Source of the DNA: a virus | Reading direction: 5' to 3' (one strand) | Length of the DNA: 39,541 bases | IMG/VR virus record: IMGVR_UViG_3300022752_003243 | Location: 1 to 39,541 of that record | Part shown: one piece after another, positions 10,590-39,541 of the stretch | Layout: every line of letters begins with the position of its first letter | How positions within the stretch are numbered: the stretch's first letter is position 1 | The notes under the pieces: model-generated | Databases searched by the model: none | Told to the model about the DNA's origin: nothing | Seen by the model: the letters and a program-made list of their open reading frames with translations, nothing else | Position numbers and translations under genes: made by a program

Positions 10590-10979
10590 ATGAAACTTTT
10601 TAAAATTGGTGCAGTGATTGCTGCCCTTTCATTAGCAACACTTGCTGTTAAAGCAGATGTTATTGTTGGAGTTCATGATGGAGATACAGTAACCACAGCA
10701 TCTGGTGAAAAAATTCGTCTTGCTTGTATTGATGCTCCAGAAGTAACCAATAACAAGCATGGTAAAAAAGACCCAATTGGTGGTCCTGCTGCACAGAAAT
10801 GGTTGTCTGATTTAGTTCTCAACAAAGATATTAAAATTGAGAGAGTTACCAAAGACCTTTATGGTAGAACTGTTGGTCGTCTCTTTCTTGCTGATGGAAC
10901 TGAAATTAATCAACAAGCAGTGGCAACAGGTCATGCTGTAGTTTATATGCCAAAGGCTTGTTCTTGGGCACAAAAATAA
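10590..10979 (+). CDS. secreted thermonuclease-family nuclease
   Basis: A 129-aa staphylococcal nuclease (SNase/TNase) family protein with an N-terminal signal peptide (to VKAD). Family residues are visible: VHDGDTV (metal-binding Asp), RLACIDAPE (Arg and Asp/Glu) and YGRTVGRLFL. It would hydrolyse DNA or RNA outside the cytoplasm. It is the last gene of the plus-strand island and its stop directly abuts the stop of the converging gene at 10980. Confidence 0.88.
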   Translation: MKLFKIGAVIAALSLATLAVKADVIVGVHDGDTVTTASGEKIRLACIDAPEVTNNKHGKKDPIGGPAAQKWLSDLVLNKDIKIERVTKDLYGRTVGRLFLADGTEINQQAVATGHAVVYMPKACSWAQK

Positions 10980-10992
10980 TCACTTTGAGTGA
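10972..10992 (-). terminator. possible weak terminator at the convergent gene ends
   Basis: A 5-bp stem (TCACT/AGTGA) with a 3-base loop followed by TTATTTTTG on the minus strand, formed from the last codons of the gene at 10980-11756. The short stem makes this uncertain. Confidence 0.3.
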
Positions 10993-11756
10993 AACTTATT
11001 ATATTGGTCTTTCTTTTCTACCTTCTGTTCTTTTTTGAGTAACTTATTTACTTTTTTCATAGAAGCAGATTTTTCAAAAGCAAAATAAACTTGCGTTTCA
11101 TATGGGGTAAGATCTCTGTTTAAGAGTTTCTTACCCCTTACAAATATCTGCTCAACTATTGGTTTCATTTTTTTTACCATCCATTCCACCAAAGATTTGC
11201 CAACAATAGCCGCAGCAACAGAAGCAGTAGCAGTGGTGCCAGCAAGTATAACCTGTTCTTTTGGAGGAACTGGAACTGCACCAACAAATGGAACTTGAAT
11301 TTCTGGTACTCCAAGATTACTATTTGTAGTGGGTTGATCGGAAATATTCCGATTATCTTGAGTATTTTGAACAGGAATTTGAATCTGAGTTAATGTAGGT
11401 TTACTGTCTGGTAGCCCTCTGGATTTTTCTTCCTTTTCTTCTTCTTTCTTTTTTTGCTCTGCTTTCACGGCAGCATCAAACTCTTCCTGTGTTGGCACAT
11501 CAATCACAGGATAATTTAATGTAGGGTTTGGCATATCAATGATAGGAAGTGCCAAACCCCTTATACTAGGTTTCTCAGGTAACCGATTAGACCCTTCCGA
11601 CAGGTACGGAATTATCGGTGGAGGCATCTCCCGCACCGCATTCTGGGCAACTTTCGGTTGATTCAGAAGAGGCAATTGCTGCAAACTCTGGTTCTGGAGT
11701 TGGTTCAACTGCTGTGATTGCAGGTTCGGGATCTCGTTTGGCATCTTCTGGACCAT
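10980..11756 (-). CDS. Gln/Pro-rich protein with a hydrophobic segment, 258 aa
   Basis: The N-terminal part is low-complexity and rich in Gln, Asn, Leu and Pro. A charged Lys/Glu stretch follows (AEQKKKEEEKEEKSRG, about 100-115), then a proline-rich region with repeated V-P and I-Q-I-P units, a hydrophobic segment (VILAGTTATASVAAAIVGKS) and a basic helical C-terminus. It may be anchored in a membrane or the virion. The frame overlaps the upstream holin-like gene by 170 bases if the first ATG is used; a Met at residue 44 (11627) would cut this to 41 bases but has poor ribosome-site spacing. Unknown function. Confidence 0.6.
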   Translation of the reverse strand: MVQKMPNEIPNLQSQQLNQLQNQSLQQLPLLNQPKVAQNAVREMPPPIIPYLSEGSNRLPEKPSIRGLALPIIDMPNPTLNYPVIDVPTQEEFDAAVKAEQKKKEEEKEEKSRGLPDSKPTLTQIQIPVQNTQDNRNISDQPTTNSNLGVPEIQVPFVGAVPVPPKEQVILAGTTATASVAAAIVGKSLVEWMVKKMKPIVEQIFVRGKKLLNRDLTPYETQVYFAFEKSASMKKVNKLLKKEQKVEKKDQYNKFHSK

Positions 11757-11910
11757 CCTTTTTCATAGTATTGATACCGAATGTTGCAGCAGAAGCAGTA
11801 AATACCGTAGCAATAAAAGTTGGATCCATTTTAGCAAGAAGTCCAGCATAGCTAGCAGTCAAGAGCGCAGCGGACCAACTCAAGATTGCAATACGAATTA
11901 ACTGTCCCAT
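11587..11910 (-). CDS. two-span membrane protein, holin candidate, 107 aa
   Basis: The ATG at 11910 (MGQLIRIAILSWSAALLTAS) follows AAGGAAACT and is preferred over 11940. There are two hydrophobic spans (residues about 4-26 and 31-50), then a Pro/Glu/Ala-rich tail with a CPEC pair. The size, two spans and position directly after the endolysin gene fit a small holin, but holins share no reliable motif. This is inference from context. Confidence 0.6.
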   Translation of the reverse strand: MGQLIRIAILSWSAALLTASYAGLLAKMDPTFIATVFTASAATFGINTMKKDGPEDAKRDPEPAITAVEPTPEPEFAAIASSESTESCPECGAGDASTDNSVPVGRV

Positions 11911-11964
11911 AGTTTCCTTTCTTTTTGTTTGTTCTGACATTGTTGGTAAGTTAGGTAAGTAAGT

Positions 11965-12534
11965 TTACTTAATAACTTCACAGCAACGAGCATAATATTT
12001 TTTACGGTCATCTAAACCGTTATAACCACCGTTGACTCTTTTTGTAACTTGATCAACACTTGGGTTTGAATCACATAAAGCATTCATATTATTATTATGC
12101 CACCAGAACCCAGCTGATGTCATAGGATACTTATTAGCAACATATGTAACACCCTGCATAACATTAGGGTCTTTAATGTAGTTTGCAAATGCCTGATAGT
12201 TTGCACGACCAGTCATCTGGATGTATCCAGCGCCCTTAAATTTTTTACCATCACCTGCTTGAGTATTTCCAAGATCTGAACGACCTTCATAATCAGCACC
12301 AGAAGCAAGTTCTTCTTTATATCTTCCTCCACCACTTTCGTGAGAGATTTGTGAAAGGAAGTGTCTGATACGGACTGGTGTATTAATCTTGAAAAAACCA
12401 AGACCATGATTCATTTCATCAACCTCAGCATCGCTGATGAGGTTCTCTGCACAGTTCCAGATGTATGCAAGTTGTTTCTTAGTTACAAGAACAGGACCGC
12501 TGCCACCCGCAGAAACAGGAGCAGCGGATGTTAC
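11965..12534 (-). CDS. GH19 (chitinase-like) endolysin, -1 frame segment
   Basis: Glycoside hydrolase family 19 domain, which cleaves the peptidoglycan glycan chain. It shows the early helix ([16 protein letters not shown]), [20 protein letters not shown] with the catalytic Glu in HES, the second Glu in YEGR, and [16 protein letters not shown]. The frame has no ATG, GTG or TTG before the Met at 12414, and a TAG closes it just before 12540. That internal Met would remove the first helix of the fold. I therefore read this as the downstream part of a frameshifted fusion with the 49-aa frame at 12531-12680, total 238 residues. Annotation tools would show only 11965-12414. Confidence 0.85.
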
Positions 12535-12552
12535 TTTTTTCTATAAATCTCC
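12497..12552 (-). promoter_or_regulatory. predicted programmed -1 ribosomal frameshift signal (dnaX-type)
   Basis: The slippery heptamer A AAA AAG (12540-12534) is in the correct zero-frame phase and is directly followed by TAA. Six bases after it starts a perfect 7-bp GC-rich stem (CCGCTGC 12527-12521, GCAGCGG 12503-12497) with a 17-base loop. A GGAG (12552-12549) lies 8 bases upstream. These are the three elements of the Escherichia coli dnaX site. Slipping back by one base joins the 49-aa frame to the GH19 domain. Confidence 0.75.
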
Positions 12553-12680
12553 GCCCAATCAGCAGTGTCTTCAAGATATTCTTTAGGTAGATTATCCTCT
12601 AACCATTGAACTGCTTTTACATGATTTGCATTCTTATCATCATAAAATTTAAAAAAGTTGTGTAAATCAATTCTTGCCAT
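12531..12680 (-). CDS. N-terminal module of the endolysin (zero frame), 49 aa
   Basis: It starts at 12680 after a strong GGAGG and ends [10 protein letters not shown]-stop. The 49 residues match the first 47 residues of the C39-like peptidase next door (DLHNFF, Y-D, NHV-AVQWLED-LP and W--I-R shared). In that neighbour the module runs in frame into the enzyme domain, so here it is probably the front of the GH19 endolysin, reached by a -1 frameshift at the end of this frame. Without slippage it would be released as a 49-aa peptide. The module is of unknown function, perhaps wall targeting. Confidence 0.75.
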
Positions 12681-12804
12681 TTGATCCTCCGAAATACTTT
12701 TGATAAAGGTCGTTTGCTTCTTTATGTTTTCCGTTATTTGTAAGATCCTTTATGATCTTAAGCATCTTTCTTTTAAAATTAATCGAAGATTCTTCCCCAT
12801 CCAT
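12667..12804 (-). CDS. small basic protein, 45 aa
   Basis: The ATG at 12804 has an ideal AGGAGG five bases upstream, embedded in the end of the peptidase gene (26-base overlap). The product is basic and helical (NFKRKMLKIIKDLTNNGKHK). It overlaps the next gene by 14 bases. No family recognised; it lies inside the lysis cassette. Confidence 0.65.
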   Translation of the reverse strand: MDGEESSINFKRKMLKIIKDLTNNGKHKEANDLYQKYFGGSNGKN

Positions 12805-13450
12805 CGTTGCCTCCTGGACACCAACGGTACTTAAGCATTGCTTTTGTATAAATGGTTTTGTGACCATTAGTTACGGGACCTGTGTAATTATCATTACACG
12901 AACCATATGGATCATTGCAGTAATAACCCTTACCATCTGGGGTCTTTCCAATCACTACAACCATGTGCCCGCCAGTAGGTGCAGATAAAGGACCACGGTG
13001 CAGAATACCAATAACGACAGGTTTCCCAGCGTCAAGACTTTTATCAATATCAGAAAAAGAAAGATTGTAACTAAAGTGTGACTTAACACCATAACCTGCA
13101 AGAACTTTTGTCTGAACTGCATGGTCAGTTGTGTCACCAATCGCAAATACTTTCTTAATGTATTCGTCATCGCCTTTAATTGCACCAGGTTTAAGGAATG
13201 CAAGGCACATTGCACACGACGAAGAGTTGCAAGTTCTATGTGCATCTCTATAGTTATCTACTTGATTAAAGTAAGGTACATTTAGTACTGCTGGAGCTGG
13301 TGGTTTTGTTCTAAAAATATTTACCCAATCAGTATCCGAATCATCCATAAACTTTTCTGGTAGATGATCCTCCAACCACTGAACTGCTGCTACATGATTT
13401 TCATTGTTCTCATCATAATACTTAAAAAAGTTATGAAGATCTAATGTCAT
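12779..13450 (-). CDS. C39-like cysteine peptidase, probable lysis enzyme
   Basis: A 223-aa protein. Residues 1-47 are the same module as in the endolysin. After a Pro-rich linker (KPPAPA) comes a papain-like peptidase C39_2-type domain beginning VLNVPYFNQVDNY: probable catalytic Cys74 (RTCNSSSCAMCL), His162 (GGHMVVVIG) and Asn179/Asp180 (YYCNDPYG). It could cut peptide cross-links in peptidoglycan or act on another substrate. A late promoter lies about 26 bases upstream, and the gene leads the lysis group. Confidence 0.8.
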   Translation of the reverse strand: MTLDLHNFFKYYDENNENHVAAVQWLEDHLPEKFMDDSDTDWVNIFRTKPPAPAVLNVPYFNQVDNYRDAHRTCNSSSCAMCLAFLKPGAIKGDDEYIKKVFAIGDTTDHAVQTKVLAGYGVKSHFSYNLSFSDIDKSLDAGKPVVIGILHRGPLSAPTGGHMVVVIGKTPDGKGYYCNDPYGSCNDNYTGPVTNGHKTIYTKAMLKYRWCPGGNDGWGRIFD

Positions 13451-36739: not shown

Positions 36740-36740
36740 G

Positions 36741-36813
36741 TGCTGGTTGTCGGGATCGAACCGACCTGTCTTGCCTTATGAGGGCAGTGCTTTCGCCAGA
36801 GAGCTAAACCAGC
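36741..36813 (-). tRNA. tRNA with CAU anticodon (Met, or Ile2 if lysidine-modified)
   Basis: 73 nt. Acceptor GCTGGTT/AACCAGC, anticodon loop CTCATAA (CAU), T arm GTCGG-TTCGATC-CCGAC, discriminator A, no encoded CCA. The D stem has only three pairs, and position 27-43 is C.A. The stem of the anticodon arm has four pairs plus this mismatch. CAU could mean elongator Met or Ile2. Confidence 0.85.
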
Positions 36814-36817
36814 ATTC

Positions 36818-36840
36818 GCTATTCGCAAATAACGAATAGC
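36818..36840 (-). repeat. inverted repeat (hairpin) between two tRNAs
   Basis: Perfect 8-bp arms GCTATTCG and CGAATAGC around a 7-base loop, without a T-tract. A processing signal between tRNAs is a plausible role. Confidence 0.5.
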
Positions 36841-36842
36841 AA

Positions 36843-36930
36843 TACGAGTGCCTGGATTCGAACCAGGTCAAAGCCGCTAATCTGGCGGAAAGAGTTTATA
36901 AGACTCCTCTGACTACCAAGTCTCACTCGC
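36843..36930 (-). tRNA. class II tRNA with apparent UAU anticodon
   Basis: 88 nt. Acceptor GCGAGTG/CACTCGT (first pair G.T), D-arm region GACTTGGTAGTC, anticodon stem GGAGT/ACTCT with loop CTTATAA, a long variable arm CCGC-CAGATTA-GCGG, T arm CCTGG-TTCGAAT-CCAGG. A long variable arm normally means Leu, Ser or Tyr, but the loop reads UAU (Ile AUA). Identity therefore uncertain. Confidence 0.75.
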
Positions 36931-36937
36931 TTGCGGT

Positions 36938-37168
36938 TTATGATGCCTCGTCGTGATCAGTGTATATTCGTATGAGGTCATCATCCACAATTGATTTTAT
37001 TGTATACTTTATGATTCCATTATAAGGAACTATCACTGCACTATTATTTTCATCATGTATAATAAATGATTCGCCATTTTCGACTTTTTCCATTAGATTA
37101 TCAAAATCTGCCTGAAACTCTTCTACTGTAAATGATTTAAGTTCGTTTAATTGTTGATTCATTTTCAT
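36938..37168 (-). CDS. Phd/YefM-like antitoxin, 76 aa
   Basis: SFTVEEFQADFDNLMEKVEN followed by GESFIIHDENNSAVIVPYN resembles the N-terminal DNA-binding half of the Phd/YefM antitoxins, small proteins that bind operator DNA and neutralise a partner toxin. No toxin gene is next to it: the 5' side is tRNA-Pro and the 3' side is the class II tRNA. It could be a solitary anti-toxin that protects phage infection from host systems. Starts at residues 1 or 3. Confidence 0.7.
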   Translation of the reverse strand: MKMNQQLNELKSFTVEEFQADFDNLMEKVENGESFIIHDENNSAVIVPYNGIIKYTIKSIVDDDLIRIYTDHDEAS

Positions 37169-37185
37169 AAAGTGATTTTTATGAG

Positions 37186-37257
37186 TCGGAGTGGAGAGGA
37201 TCGAACTCCCGTCTTCATCTTCCCAAAAGATGCCGTCTACCGCTGACTTACACTCCG
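37186..37257 (-). tRNA. tRNA-Pro (UGG)
   Basis: 72 nt. Acceptor CGGAGTG/CACTCCG, anticodon stem CATCT/AGATG with loop TTTGGGA (UGG), T arm GGGAG-TTCGATC-CTCTC, discriminator A, no encoded CCA. Confidence 0.93.
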
Positions 37258-37265
37258 TTGCACCG

Positions 37266-37382
37266 TTATTTAGTTCGGTGTATAAGCATTATACCCGCAA
37301 TCGGCACAATCGTCAATCCCAATCCACAGAGTCCTATCCAGATTGGACTTGTTGCTAGTGTCTCTACAATATGAAAAATCAT
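37266..37382 (-). CDS. single-span membrane peptide, 38 aa
   Basis: A 38-codon frame (MIFHIVETLATSPIWIGLCG, then GLTIVPIAGIMLIHRTK) overlapping the upstream stop as ATGA. One hydrophobic helix. No family recognised; the size resembles small photosystem-type subunits but no match is seen. Confidence 0.6.
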   Translation of the reverse strand: MIFHIVETLATSPIWIGLCGLGLTIVPIAGIMLIHRTK

Positions 37383-37576
37383 CGTCCTCTCCAATTCTTG
37401 TATTCATAGTAAAAGTATTGATCTACCTCATCAAGACCTGATAGAGGAGCATCTACTTGCCAATCTGTCCATTCTAAACAAAACTGTTTCATTGATGAAT
37501 CAATTTTTCTAAATCCATACATTCTAGAAAAAGCAGATAGTGCAAATTCATATCTTTGTTTATTGTGGATATGCAT
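37379..37576 (-). CDS. hypothetical protein, 65 aa
   Basis: The ATG at 37576 follows TTGGAG at good spacing; the frame is open to 37615 but would then cover most of the 29-aa gene. Aromatic and acidic soluble protein (CLEWTDWQVDAPLSGLDEVD). Unknown function. Confidence 0.55.
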   Translation of the reverse strand: MHIHNKQRYEFALSAFSRMYGFRKIDSSMKQFCLEWTDWQVDAPLSGLDEVDQYFYYEYKNWRGR

Positions 37577-37649
37577 GAGTAAGACTCCAACATATGAAAA
37601 GTCCAATAAGACCAAAAATAGTCATTGCATTAAAAATTACTTTACTCAT
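37560..37649 (-). CDS. single-span membrane micro-protein, 29 aa
   Basis: MSKVIFNAMTIFGLIGLFIC, then WSLTHAYPQ: one hydrophobic helix. The ATG overlaps the end of the upstream gene by 8 bases. Too short for routine gene callers. No family recognised. Confidence 0.5.
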   Translation of the reverse strand: MSKVIFNAMTIFGLIGLFICWSLTHAYPQ

Positions 37650-37932
37650 CTTCTTCGTCCTCGTAAGTAGATGGTTCTTCGAATAATTCGTCTATCTTTT
37701 GTTGTAAAACTCTTTTTTGAAGTTCTTGTAAATCTTCGTCTGTGAATCTTACCACGAGTAATGGATCTCCTGCCTTAACGTCATTCATTTCTGGATGCTT
37801 TACCTTTGGACTTTTTGAGTATCCATGGTGAGCATTCATTACCATCCAACCCTGCACAAACATTGATAGTGCAATACCCACAAGAACAAACCAAGGAACC
37901 AAAAAGATTAGTTCAGCGTGATTTTGAGCCAT
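37642..37932 (-). CDS. membrane protein with acidic tail, 96 aa (paralogue of 3845-4066)
   Basis: Start at 37932 (MAQNHAELIFLVPWFVLVGI); the frame is open to 38010. One hydrophobic span, then VKHPEMNDVKAGDPLLVVRF and an acidic end EDEEDE. The C-terminal HPEM and LLVVRF motifs recall the gene at 3845-4066. The start Met codon overlaps the upstream gene by 25 bases. Function unknown. Confidence 0.65.
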   Translation of the reverse strand: MAQNHAELIFLVPWFVLVGIALSMFVQGWMVMNAHHGYSKSPKVKHPEMNDVKAGDPLLVVRFTDEDLQELQKRVLQQKIDELFEEPSTYEDEEDE

Positions 37933-38114
37933 GGTAATAAAGGTGGGATTACCCCAACTAGTCTTAGAAGTCCCTCTGCAAATAAAGCAAGAACCACCCA
38001 ACCGACGCACATACTAATGATAGAAGCATTACGGTTGTGTCGTCGTATAGCAGCATCAATCATCTCCTGCACTTCTGTACGAGTTACATAATCATCGTCA
38101 AAAGGTTCCATCAT
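37908..38114 (-). CDS. single-span membrane protein, 68 aa
   Basis: MMEPFDDDYVTRTEVQEMID, a basic stretch (IRRHNRNAS), then a hydrophobic span (ISMCVGWVVLALFAEGLLRL). ATGA overlap with the upstream gene. No family recognised. Confidence 0.6.
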   Translation of the reverse strand: MMEPFDDDYVTRTEVQEMIDAAIRRHNRNASIISMCVGWVVLALFAEGLLRLVGVIPPLLPWLKITLN

Positions 38115-38260
38115 TTCTCGTCTCCAAGAAACTTTGCCAGAGGGTCTCTTCTGGTTTTGACTATTTCACACGCTCTTCGGTAAAACATATTATCTGTATT
38201 GCCAGACTGTTCGAAGGTCTCCTTGATCTTCACCCAATTATCATAGGTGTGCTGATCCAT
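38111..38260 (-). CDS. small hypothetical protein, 49 aa
   Basis: MDQHTYDNWVKIKETFEQSG and NMFYRRACEIVKTRRDPLAK; helical, charged, soluble. The first gene after the promoter at 38287; the stop overlaps the next ATG (ATGA). No family recognised. Confidence 0.65.
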   Translation of the reverse strand: MDQHTYDNWVKIKETFEQSGNTDNMFYRRACEIVKTRRDPLAKFLGDEK

Positions 38261-38286
38261 AGGGTTTAGGTTGAATACTACTAGTT

Positions 38287-38314
38287 ATGATAGTGAGTAC
38301 TTCTACTTTGTCAA
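38287..38314 (-). promoter_or_regulatory. sigma70-type promoter
   Basis: TTGACA (38314-38309), 16 bases, TATCAT (38292-38287) on the minus strand, about 20 bases upstream of the ATG at 38260. It drives the small genes down to about 37.3 kb. Confidence 0.7.
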
Positions 38315-38372
38315 GTTTGTGTTGATACAAAAATATAGATTAAGAAAATCTAAACTTTTGTAATATTTGTAA

Positions 38373-38459
38373 CGGAAACGACTGGATTTGAACCAGTGGA
38401 GGTGTTACCCTCATTTGTTTTCAAGACAAACGCAATAAACCAGACTCTGCCACGTTTCC
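38373..38459 (-). tRNA. tRNA-Ser (UGA)
   Basis: 87 nt class II tRNA. Acceptor GGAAACG/CGTTTCC, anticodon stem TTTGT/ACAAA with loop CTTGAAA (UGA), long variable arm GAGGGTAACACCTC, T arm ACTGG-TTCAAAT-CCAGT, discriminator G. No encoded CCA. Confidence 0.93.
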
Positions 38460-38470
38460 AATAAAAGTCC

Positions 38471-38722
38471 TCAACGGACTTCAAAATCTAATTTACGAAC
38501 TTTTCTTTTTCTTCTCTCTTCCTGCCAAGCAATATCTTGAGAGGATAGCACACTTTTATTTTGATTTTCTTTTAAAGAGTTTAGCATTACAACTCTTGAT
38601 AAGTCAAGTGCTGAAATTCTATCTCCACGAATTGTTGCCATATTTGGACAACCACAGGTTACTGTTTTTGATGGATGTCCGTGCAATTCTCTATTGCAAT
38701 CTTTGCATCTTATTGAAAGCAT
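38471..38722 (-). CDS. small zinc-ribbon-like protein, 83 aa
   Basis: MLSIRCKDCNRELHGHPSKT is followed by TCGCPN, so Cys6/Cys9 and Cys23/Cys25 could bind zinc, in the style of small phage zinc-ribbon proteins. The C-terminal half is basic (ERRKRKVRKLDFEVR). Nucleic-acid binding is plausible but unproven. Confidence 0.65.
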   Translation of the reverse strand: MLSIRCKDCNRELHGHPSKTVTCGCPNMATIRGDRISALDLSRVVMLNSLKENQNKSVLSSQDIAWQEERRKRKVRKLDFEVR

Positions 38723-38737
38723 TGTTCTTCATCCTTA

Positions 38738-39172
38738 TCACTGTAAATGTGATCTCAATTGCCATACAAACTTACCATGAGATTCCATTAAGTCTTGAAC
38801 CAGATTAGCAGTTGCATATTGCTTTTGTGTTTCAGACTCTTCAGAAATCTCTTGCATTAACTCACAAAACTTAGTGTTATTATCAAGCAATTCCTGAAGC
38901 ATTTCTTTTGCTCCCGTAGAGCTTGCTGCTTCTTTAATTTGTGTTACCTCAAGCATTCTTGAAAGGGAACTTAAAGGTTTAATATTCAGATATCTCATAT
39001 GTTCTGAGAGACGATCAATCTCCTCAAACATAGTCTCATACTGTCCACCAAAAAGTTGATGAAGTTGAGTAAAATCTTCTCCAACTACATTCCAGTGAAA
39101 TGCCCAAGTTTTATGAAACAAAACAAAAAGTGATGACTGAGCATCACTTAAGAGTTTAAACAGTTTTTCCAT
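38738..39172 (-). CDS. Dps/ferritin-like protein, 144 aa
   Basis: From the ATG at 39172 (MEKLFKLLSDAQSSLFVLFH). The Dps ferroxidase signature is present: FHWNVVGEDFTQLHQLFGGQ and EEIDRLSEHMR, giving the two His, Asp and Glu that form the inter-subunit iron site. Four helices fit a Dps dodecamer. It would store iron, remove peroxide or protect DNA. The frame is open to 39199, but that start lies between a late promoter (39189-39196) and the tRNA-Val; the shorter form is preferred. Confidence 0.83.
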   Translation of the reverse strand: MEKLFKLLSDAQSSLFVLFHKTWAFHWNVVGEDFTQLHQLFGGQYETMFEEIDRLSEHMRYLNIKPLSSLSRMLEVTQIKEAASSTGAKEMLQELLDNNTKFCELMQEISEESETQKQYATANLVQDLMESHGKFVWQLRSHLQ

Positions 39173-39188
39173 TATACTCTTTTTTGAA

Positions 39189-39196
39189 TATTTATG
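39189..39196 (-). promoter_or_regulatory. T4-type late promoter of the Dps-like gene
   Basis: CATAAATA on the minus strand, 16-17 bases before the ATG at 39172 and directly after the 3' end of tRNA-Val. Confidence 0.55.
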
Positions 39197-39200
39197 CAAG

Positions 39201-39272
39201 TGGGAGCAGAGGGATTTGAACCCCCGACTGTCTGAATGTAAGTCAGAAACTCTACCACTGAGTTATGCTCCC
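39201..39272 (-). tRNA. tRNA-Val (UAC)
   Basis: 72 nt. Acceptor GGGAGCA/TGCTCCC, anticodon stem TCTGA/TCAGA with loop CTTACAT (UAC), T arm GGGGG-TTCAAAT-CCCTC, discriminator A, no encoded CCA. Confidence 0.93.
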
Positions 39273-39276
39273 AAAT

Positions 39277-39342
39277 GGGTAGTGAGTGCCCACCACCCGC
39301 AGAAGACACTTTCTGCGATTTTCACTGCATTAGAGGGCAGTG
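39277..39342 (-). repeat. three adjacent hairpins between tRNA-Asn and tRNA-Val
   Basis: Arms at 39277-39284/39291-39298 (7 of 8 paired), 39298-39304/39311-39317 (7 bp, CGCAGAA/TTCTGCG) and 39323-39328/39337-39342 (6 bp, CACTGC/GCAGTG). The 194-base spacer otherwise has no convincing gene. Processing or spacer structure is plausible. Confidence 0.45.
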
Positions 39343-39466
39343 AATAAGAAAGATAGGCAGGTGCGGTATCCGTCGTGCGTTTCAGAAGTGTCACCGAGTC
39401 CCATGCTCCTTTTTCTTTCCTTACCTTTCTCAATTTGGAAGACCCAGACATTTCCAGTCCTTCCAA

Positions 39467-39538
39467 CTCCCCCGACAAGATTCGAACTTGTGACCTGGAA
39501 ATTAACAGTTTCTCGCGCTACCGCTGCGCCACAGGGGA
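39467..39538 (-). tRNA. tRNA-Asn (GUU)
   Basis: 72 nt. Acceptor TCCCCTG/CGGGGGA, anticodon loop CTGTTAA (GUU), T arm ACAAG-TTCGAAT-CTTGT, discriminator G, no encoded CCA. It lies close to the window edge but is complete. Confidence 0.93.
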
Positions 39539-39541
39539 ATA

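Follow-up and report, generated by a model that had tools for sequence, protein, structure and literature searches.

A split endolysin gene with a candidate frameshift signal

How could a phage produce an endolysin whose reading frame offers no ordinary place to start? The question is raised by IMG/VR virus record IMGVR_UViG_3300022752_003243, of which we analysed a stretch of 39,541 nucleotides (the window). An initial annotation, made from the letters alone, had pointed out that a GH19 endolysin frame lacks a usable start codon before residue 41 and is closed upstream by TAG, and had proposed that the enzyme is made as an extension of the 49-aa frame in front of it, through a programmed −1 frameshift of the E. 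coli dnaX type. The elements of the locus are the following, with "shifted" denoting genes in which the enzyme lies in the −1 frame relative to the domain before it.

12531–12680, minus strand: module ORF of 49 aa in the 0 frame, a conserved helical N-terminal module ending A AAA AAG TAA
12534–12540, minus strand: slippery heptamer A AAA AAG, identical in all seven distinct shifted sequences
12531–12533, minus strand: 0-frame stop TAA directly 3′ of the heptamer, TAG in all six relatives
12549–12552, minus strand: Shine–Dalgarno (SD)-like GGAG, 8 nt 5′ of the heptamer; GGAG in five of seven sequences, GAGG in L011, weak in L015
12497–12527, minus strand: candidate stimulatory hairpin of 8 + 5 bp with one bulge, 6 nt 3′ of the heptamer
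11965–12540, minus strand: GH19-type endolysin frame (−1) comprising linker and catalytic domain, lacking a start codon ahead of residue 43
11965–12680, minus strand: predicted 238-aa module–linker–GH19 fusion by −1 frameshifting; relatives have the same domains fused in frame
12779–13450, minus strand: neighbouring C39 peptidase gene with a paralogous module fused in frame

The ATG of the module ORF is preceded by a strong ribosome-binding site, GGAGG, and the 3′ end of the ORF reads TAT AGA AAA AAG TAA, with the heptamer (12540–12534) sitting at the frame junction, precisely in X XXY YYZ phase. Counted from the slipped AAA, the GH19 frame has 191 codons; it is closed 5′ by a TAG directly before the slipped codons of the heptamer and contains no ATG, GTG or TTG before residue 43, which is residue 41 from the first shifted codon. 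The reading frames, the slippery phase, the GGAG eight bases upstream (12552–12549) and the length of the fusion (49 + 189 = 238 aa) had thus all been described correctly. Elsewhere in the window, A AAA AAG is found in phase at 4 of 10,566 other codons; given this rarity and the preservation of the arrangement in six further distinct sequences, the junction is more than a chance pattern.

We consider it very probable, judging from the sequence, that programmed −1 frameshifting yields two forms of the endolysin through a dnaX-type cassette. Ribosomes would initiate at the module ATG and translate 49 codons up to A AAA AAG; those that stay in frame would stop at the adjacent TAA and release the free module, and a fraction would slip by −1, with help from the hairpin 6 nt further on and probably also from the GGAG upstream, and continue via the linker into the GH19 endolysin to give the 238-aa fusion. 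It is from these features that we infer the slippage itself, its translational nature, its efficiency and the roles of both products. In E. coli, few sites are as prone to shifting as A_AAA_AAG, and in about half of bacteria both Lys codons are read by one tRNA (PMC5009743).

Module and enzyme

The 49 residues had been matched to the N-terminal module of the neighbouring C39 peptidase, and the relationship holds at the DNA level, with 76% identity over about 130 nt; the module–enzyme junction of that peptidase gene has no slippery site. Modelled alone, the module is predicted to adopt a fold (pLDDT 82), so that a free form is plausible as a product; no PDB match was found for the model. For a homologue of the fusion, the prediction reached a pLDDT of 43 with a shallow alignment. 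The GH19 frame matches the endolysin family PHROG 181 (7.5e-42), the endolysin of PDB 9ms7 (3.5e-32) and PDB 4ok7, with a weak match to the chitinase of PDB 5h7t and a Pfam PF00182 score of 13.8 bits, below the cut-off of 25.5 bits. By its similarity to PHROG 181 and the PDB endolysins, the window enzyme is a GH19-type endolysin.

Conservation of the split frame

With the GH19 protein as query, we retrieved 80 loci from IMG/VR, and most of the sequences compared are metagenomic fragments. Besides the window, six distinct metagenomic sequences (L005, L009, L010, L011, L015 and L017) have the module ORF, A AAA AAG with TAG directly after it, and GH19 in the −1 frame. The seven come from different metagenomes and share 80–92% of their GH19 DNA; their pS is about 0.43–0.54, with a mean of 0.54 synonymous differences per site in GH19. 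The comparison of homologues that had been proposed as a check thus came out in favour of programming: heptamer, stem and split frame are conserved across seven distinct sequences. A stop at the slippery site just before the domain, combined with the lack of an ordinary start, is found only in these seven and in L043 among 106 distinct GH19 loci. Four further loci that fitted the DNA pattern (L086, L088, L092 and L094) were rejected as chance matches, and the GH19 DNA tree did not resolve the shifted genes as one clade or the shifted state as having a single origin.

The initial annotation had offered a simple one-base deletion in the A tract as the alternative. As an event peculiar to this genome, the deletion is excluded by the seven concordant sequences, six relatives sharing the split. 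More broadly, a one-base deletion or an assembly error could have disrupted an ordinary in-frame fusion: close relatives do have the same domains fused in frame, and a seven-A in-frame variant is known in the C39–GH19 context described below. Such an origin is nevertheless extremely unlikely, as the split is common to seven distinct sequences of large synonymous divergence and, in the case of Synechococcus phage S-PM2, is present in two genome records, and as shifted and in-frame members also differ at bases outside the A tract (AAAAAAGTAGCATCC vs. AAAAAAGACTAGTGCC).

Within the shifted set, the median dN/dS is about 0.12 for the module and about 0.05 for GH19 read in the −1 frame, and we conclude from these substitution patterns that both frames are under purifying selection; the 0 frame 3′ of the heptamer contains 7–12 stops. 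The same numbers bear on the idea of a decayed gene, in which the 49-aa module alone is used and the GH19 is a relic, as a frame without a start codon might suggest. That idea is hardly credible given the low GH19 dN/dS, a frame open in all members and an invariant HESGGGR motif, conserved in 15 homologues. We take this motif, from general knowledge of the family, to hold the catalytic glutamate. Moreover, the split-gene GH19 is the sole GH19 match in each contig searched.

Separate translation of the GH19 frame, from a non-canonical start or by termination–reinitiation at the TAA, has parallels in the ATGA-overlapping lysis genes of relatives, and in L009 and L010 a GTG lies 22 codons upstream. 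In five of the seven shifted sequences (the window and four relatives), however, a TAG stands directly 5′ of the frame and no ATG, GTG or TTG precedes the domain. Separate translation would also leave unexplained the conservation of the in-phase heptamer and the −1 stops of the in-frame relatives, and we regard it as very unlikely.

The hairpin and the SD-like element

The window stem, CCGCTGC paired with GCAGCGG, begins 6 nt past the heptamer, at the position first annotated; the 7 bp given for it proved too few, the fold being larger with 8 outer and 5 inner base pairs. The 101-nt region has a folding energy of −32.4 kcal/mol (z = −3.3 against dinucleotide shuffles), and each of the seven distinct shifted module–GH19 sequences has its hairpin start at +6. 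The Ala and Gly codons of the linker bias the region toward GC-rich pairing, and the stability of the hairpin was assessed with synonymous controls: in each of the seven it exceeded that of at least 96% of synonymous recodings encoding the same −1 protein. Covariation within the stem was not above shuffles among the seven shifted sequences of the window clade, where the stems are maintained mostly by pairs that are unchanged or of the wobble type; the one compensatory pair is that of L011.

The likeness to E. coli dnaX (tau/gamma) extends to the A AAA AAG heptamer, the hairpin 6 nt downstream of it (PMC11162774) and, less clearly, an SD-like element upstream (PMC11162774, PMC3711429). Of the three dnaX parts initially claimed, the heptamer and the stem position agree and the SD-like element does so roughly, with a spacing of 8 nt in the window vs. 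10 nt in dnaX and GGAG or GAGG in six of the seven shifted sequences. The genes are unrelated, and the outcome differs: the shift makes a fusion in the window and a truncation in dnaX. A two-ORF dnaX whose long form needs recoding has been reported, giving precedent for both polarities (PMC3711429).

Opposite polarity in the in-frame relatives

All eight distinct genes with the module and GH19 in frame have a −1 stop two codons past the slippery run (GAC TAG, GAA TGA, GGC TGA and similar), as is the case in dnaX; the run is A AAA AAG, except for A AAA AGG in L019. A survey with the module uncovered a large sister family that combines it with a T4-type lysozyme and includes the isolates DSL-LC02 and DSL-LC03. 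In 60 such sequences GGA AAA AAG is invariant, despite Lys codons being used 58:42 and GGA accounting for 31% of Gly, and no other stretch of the gene is as constrained at synonymous sites as the five codons from GGA AAA AAG. In 52 of the 60, a −1 stop follows two codons on, against 19.5 expected from synonymous choice, with nominal p-values that overstate independence because the sequences are related; the stops span differing residue pairs (TS, GN, SS, TN, NN, SN and NS). The in-phase heptamer is found once per module–lysozyme gene, always at the junction, and the codons 11 nt 5′ of it are biased to GCG (56% vs. 4%) and GAG (79% vs. 26%), forming an SD-like GGCGGAG. Downstream of the heptamer, the module–lysozyme genes have no structure beyond synonymous expectation. 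As the in-frame relatives keep both the heptamer and the −1 stop, a shift would there yield the module alone, a polarity that is dnaX-like and the reverse of that in the window.

These patterns also help to weigh ribosomal slippage against slippage of RNA polymerase, which could add an A within the run and bring some of the mRNAs in frame. An A run does exist, the junction of phage S-CAM7 has a T8 run, and the dnaX of Thermus uses the process, at a longer run (PMC3711429). The window run, however, is six A between G residues, and the runs quoted for such slippage have n > 7 (PMC3711429); moreover, conservation of the hairpin and, in the module–lysozyme genes, of the SD-like codons favours the ribosome. 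We consider polymerase slippage unlikely.

C39 junctions and cultured isolates

Beyond the window endolysin, where the proposed dnaX-type signal stands, the signal is not unique: besides its opposite polarity in the in-frame relatives, it recurs in many T4-like cyanophages where a C39 peptidase is joined to GH19 or lysozyme. In L043 and L263 the C39 peptidase ends GTA AAA AAG TAG, GH19 comes next in the −1 frame and a hairpin lies 5 nt downstream. The C39–GH19 junctions of L044 (2390) and L045 (3000) contain seven A, are in frame and retain the hairpin. A scan with the C39–lysozyme protein of ACG-2014f, together with four isolate loci, provided 76 scorable C39–lysozyme loci, and at 50 of these the lysozyme is in the −1 frame. 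An in-phase A AAA AAG with a stop immediately after it or one codon later is found at 36 of the 50 (29 distinct, the isolates S-PM2 and S-SRM01 among them), and the others are mostly ordinary ATGA overlaps with a second module. The two frames have median dN/dS of 0.14 and 0.22 (unsaturated pairs only), indicating purifying selection on both, and no further in-phase heptamer occurs in the C39 ORFs.

One C39–lysozyme subgroup has a 12-bp stem with 98.5% pairing, in which three pairs have changed on both sides. Of five covariation measures, three (score, pairing and changed cells) were each reached by only 3 of 500 shuffles; the number of pairs changed was reached by 33 of 500. In the subgroup of S-PM2, an 11-bp stem is 95.5% paired and its covariation score was reached by 53 of 500 shuffles.

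Among cultured phages, Synechococcus phage S-PM2 (NC_006820.1, L470:795–1978) has a C39 ORF ending GCA AAA AAG TAA, the lysozyme in the −1 frame and an 11-bp hairpin from 5 nt past the heptamer; the junction is identical in a second genome record, that of a deletion mutant. In GenBank, the S-PM2 peptidase is a hypothetical protein and the putative lysin begins about 270 nt past the C39 end, well inside the domain. S-SRM01 has A AAA AAG CAA TGA at the C39–lysozyme junction, with an ATG available too. ACG-2014f has the two domains fused in frame; the junction (L388:2211–2240) reads A AAA AAG TCT GAG, has a TGA in the −1 frame and is followed after 5 nt by an 8-bp hairpin, and by its sequence would be one of the reverse, dnaX-like polarity. 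Three sequences were tested for the stability of this hairpin, which exceeded that of about 99% of synonymous variants in two and of 93% in the third. S-CREM2, with separate C39 and lysozyme genes annotated, was rejected as a split case, being an ordinary overlap in which the module has its own start. In S-CAM7 (L469 and L591, about 1490–1515), the −1 lysozyme frame follows the T8 run in place of A AAA AAG, and the run is a possible alternative slippery site.

Domains joined at A AAA AAG would thus seem to be a wider trait of T4-like cyanophage endolysins, the shift making either the fusion or a truncated form. A broader conjecture, for and against which we see the case as evenly balanced, is that the −1 cassette acts in the endolysins of Kyanoviridae as a dual-output switch, old and under selection, in which A AAA AAG has been kept as the catalytic domains (GH19, lysozyme and C39) were swapped and the default product flipped, and that selection acts on how much free module or peptidase is made relative to fused endolysin, a ratio that helps to set lysis.

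Known systems and possible roles

The searched open-access literature yielded no frameshift case like this one in a cyanophage or an endolysin, in line with the initial claim for cyanophage endolysins. Phage tail assembly chaperones of the lambda gpG/gpGT type are gene pairs joined by −1 frameshifting into a short form and a fusion. They differ from our case in being morphogenesis genes rather than lysis enzymes and in typically using other slippery sites, and the window gene, a module plus endolysin beside a C39 peptidase, is not one of them. In the endolysins CTP1L, CD27L and Ms6 LysA, one lysis gene gives the full-length enzyme and a partial product (PMC4777826; Ms6: PMC3111421), although by an in-frame internal start with no frameshift. 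In CTP1L the free binding domain, which is C-terminal, modulates endolysin activity (PMC4777826). By analogy, the free module could modulate the fused enzyme; the shift could also simply cap the endolysin dose, and the two products together possibly serve either role. That the phage would meter its endolysin output through the frameshift, as first suggested, we likewise infer.

The nearest lysin precedent is a lactococcal lysin (1994), which PMC10885494 cites with other genes in which a frameshift is known. It belongs to a different host and is a different gene. To our knowledge, it has no link to cyanophages or to A AAA AAG. Given this precedent, frameshifting of a lysin may not in itself be novel; a signal that runs through a family of cyanophage endolysins in both polarities appears to be, within the searchable literature.

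T4-like cyanophages are among the most abundant viruses in water. If our reading is correct, the lysis enzymes of many of them are mis-annotated, the S-PM2 lysin and its "hypothetical" peptidase being examples, and endolysins join the short list of phage genes expressed through programmed frameshifting. The family would also offer a natural series with one signal in both polarities, and how cyanophages set the form and dose of their endolysin would become testable in cultured phage. The shift would then seem to be an overlooked step in the killing of marine and freshwater cyanobacteria, recurring in many related viruses including S-PM2.

Surroundings of the locus

Several other features of the window deserve mention. 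A 66-aa ORF (12667–12867) bridges the C39 and module ORFs, overlapping both, and its 3′ end contains the ribosome-binding site of the module; a similar sequence precedes the endolysin in DSL-LC03. Just downstream of the endolysin, two ORFs (10980–11940) overlap by 170 nt, the second in another frame, and the first, of 117 aa with a hydrophobic stretch, is a holin candidate. Beside the lysis genes, the plus strand encodes a secreted nuclease-like protein (PHROG 452; 10590–10979). A cluster of six tRNAs (Met, Ile, Pro, Ser, Val and Asn) at 36740–39539 has no tRNA-Lys. A long run of overlapping genes on the minus strand (14174–35741), one of them matching a nucleotide-sugar epimerase (PHROG 540), is perhaps a surface-sugar cluster.
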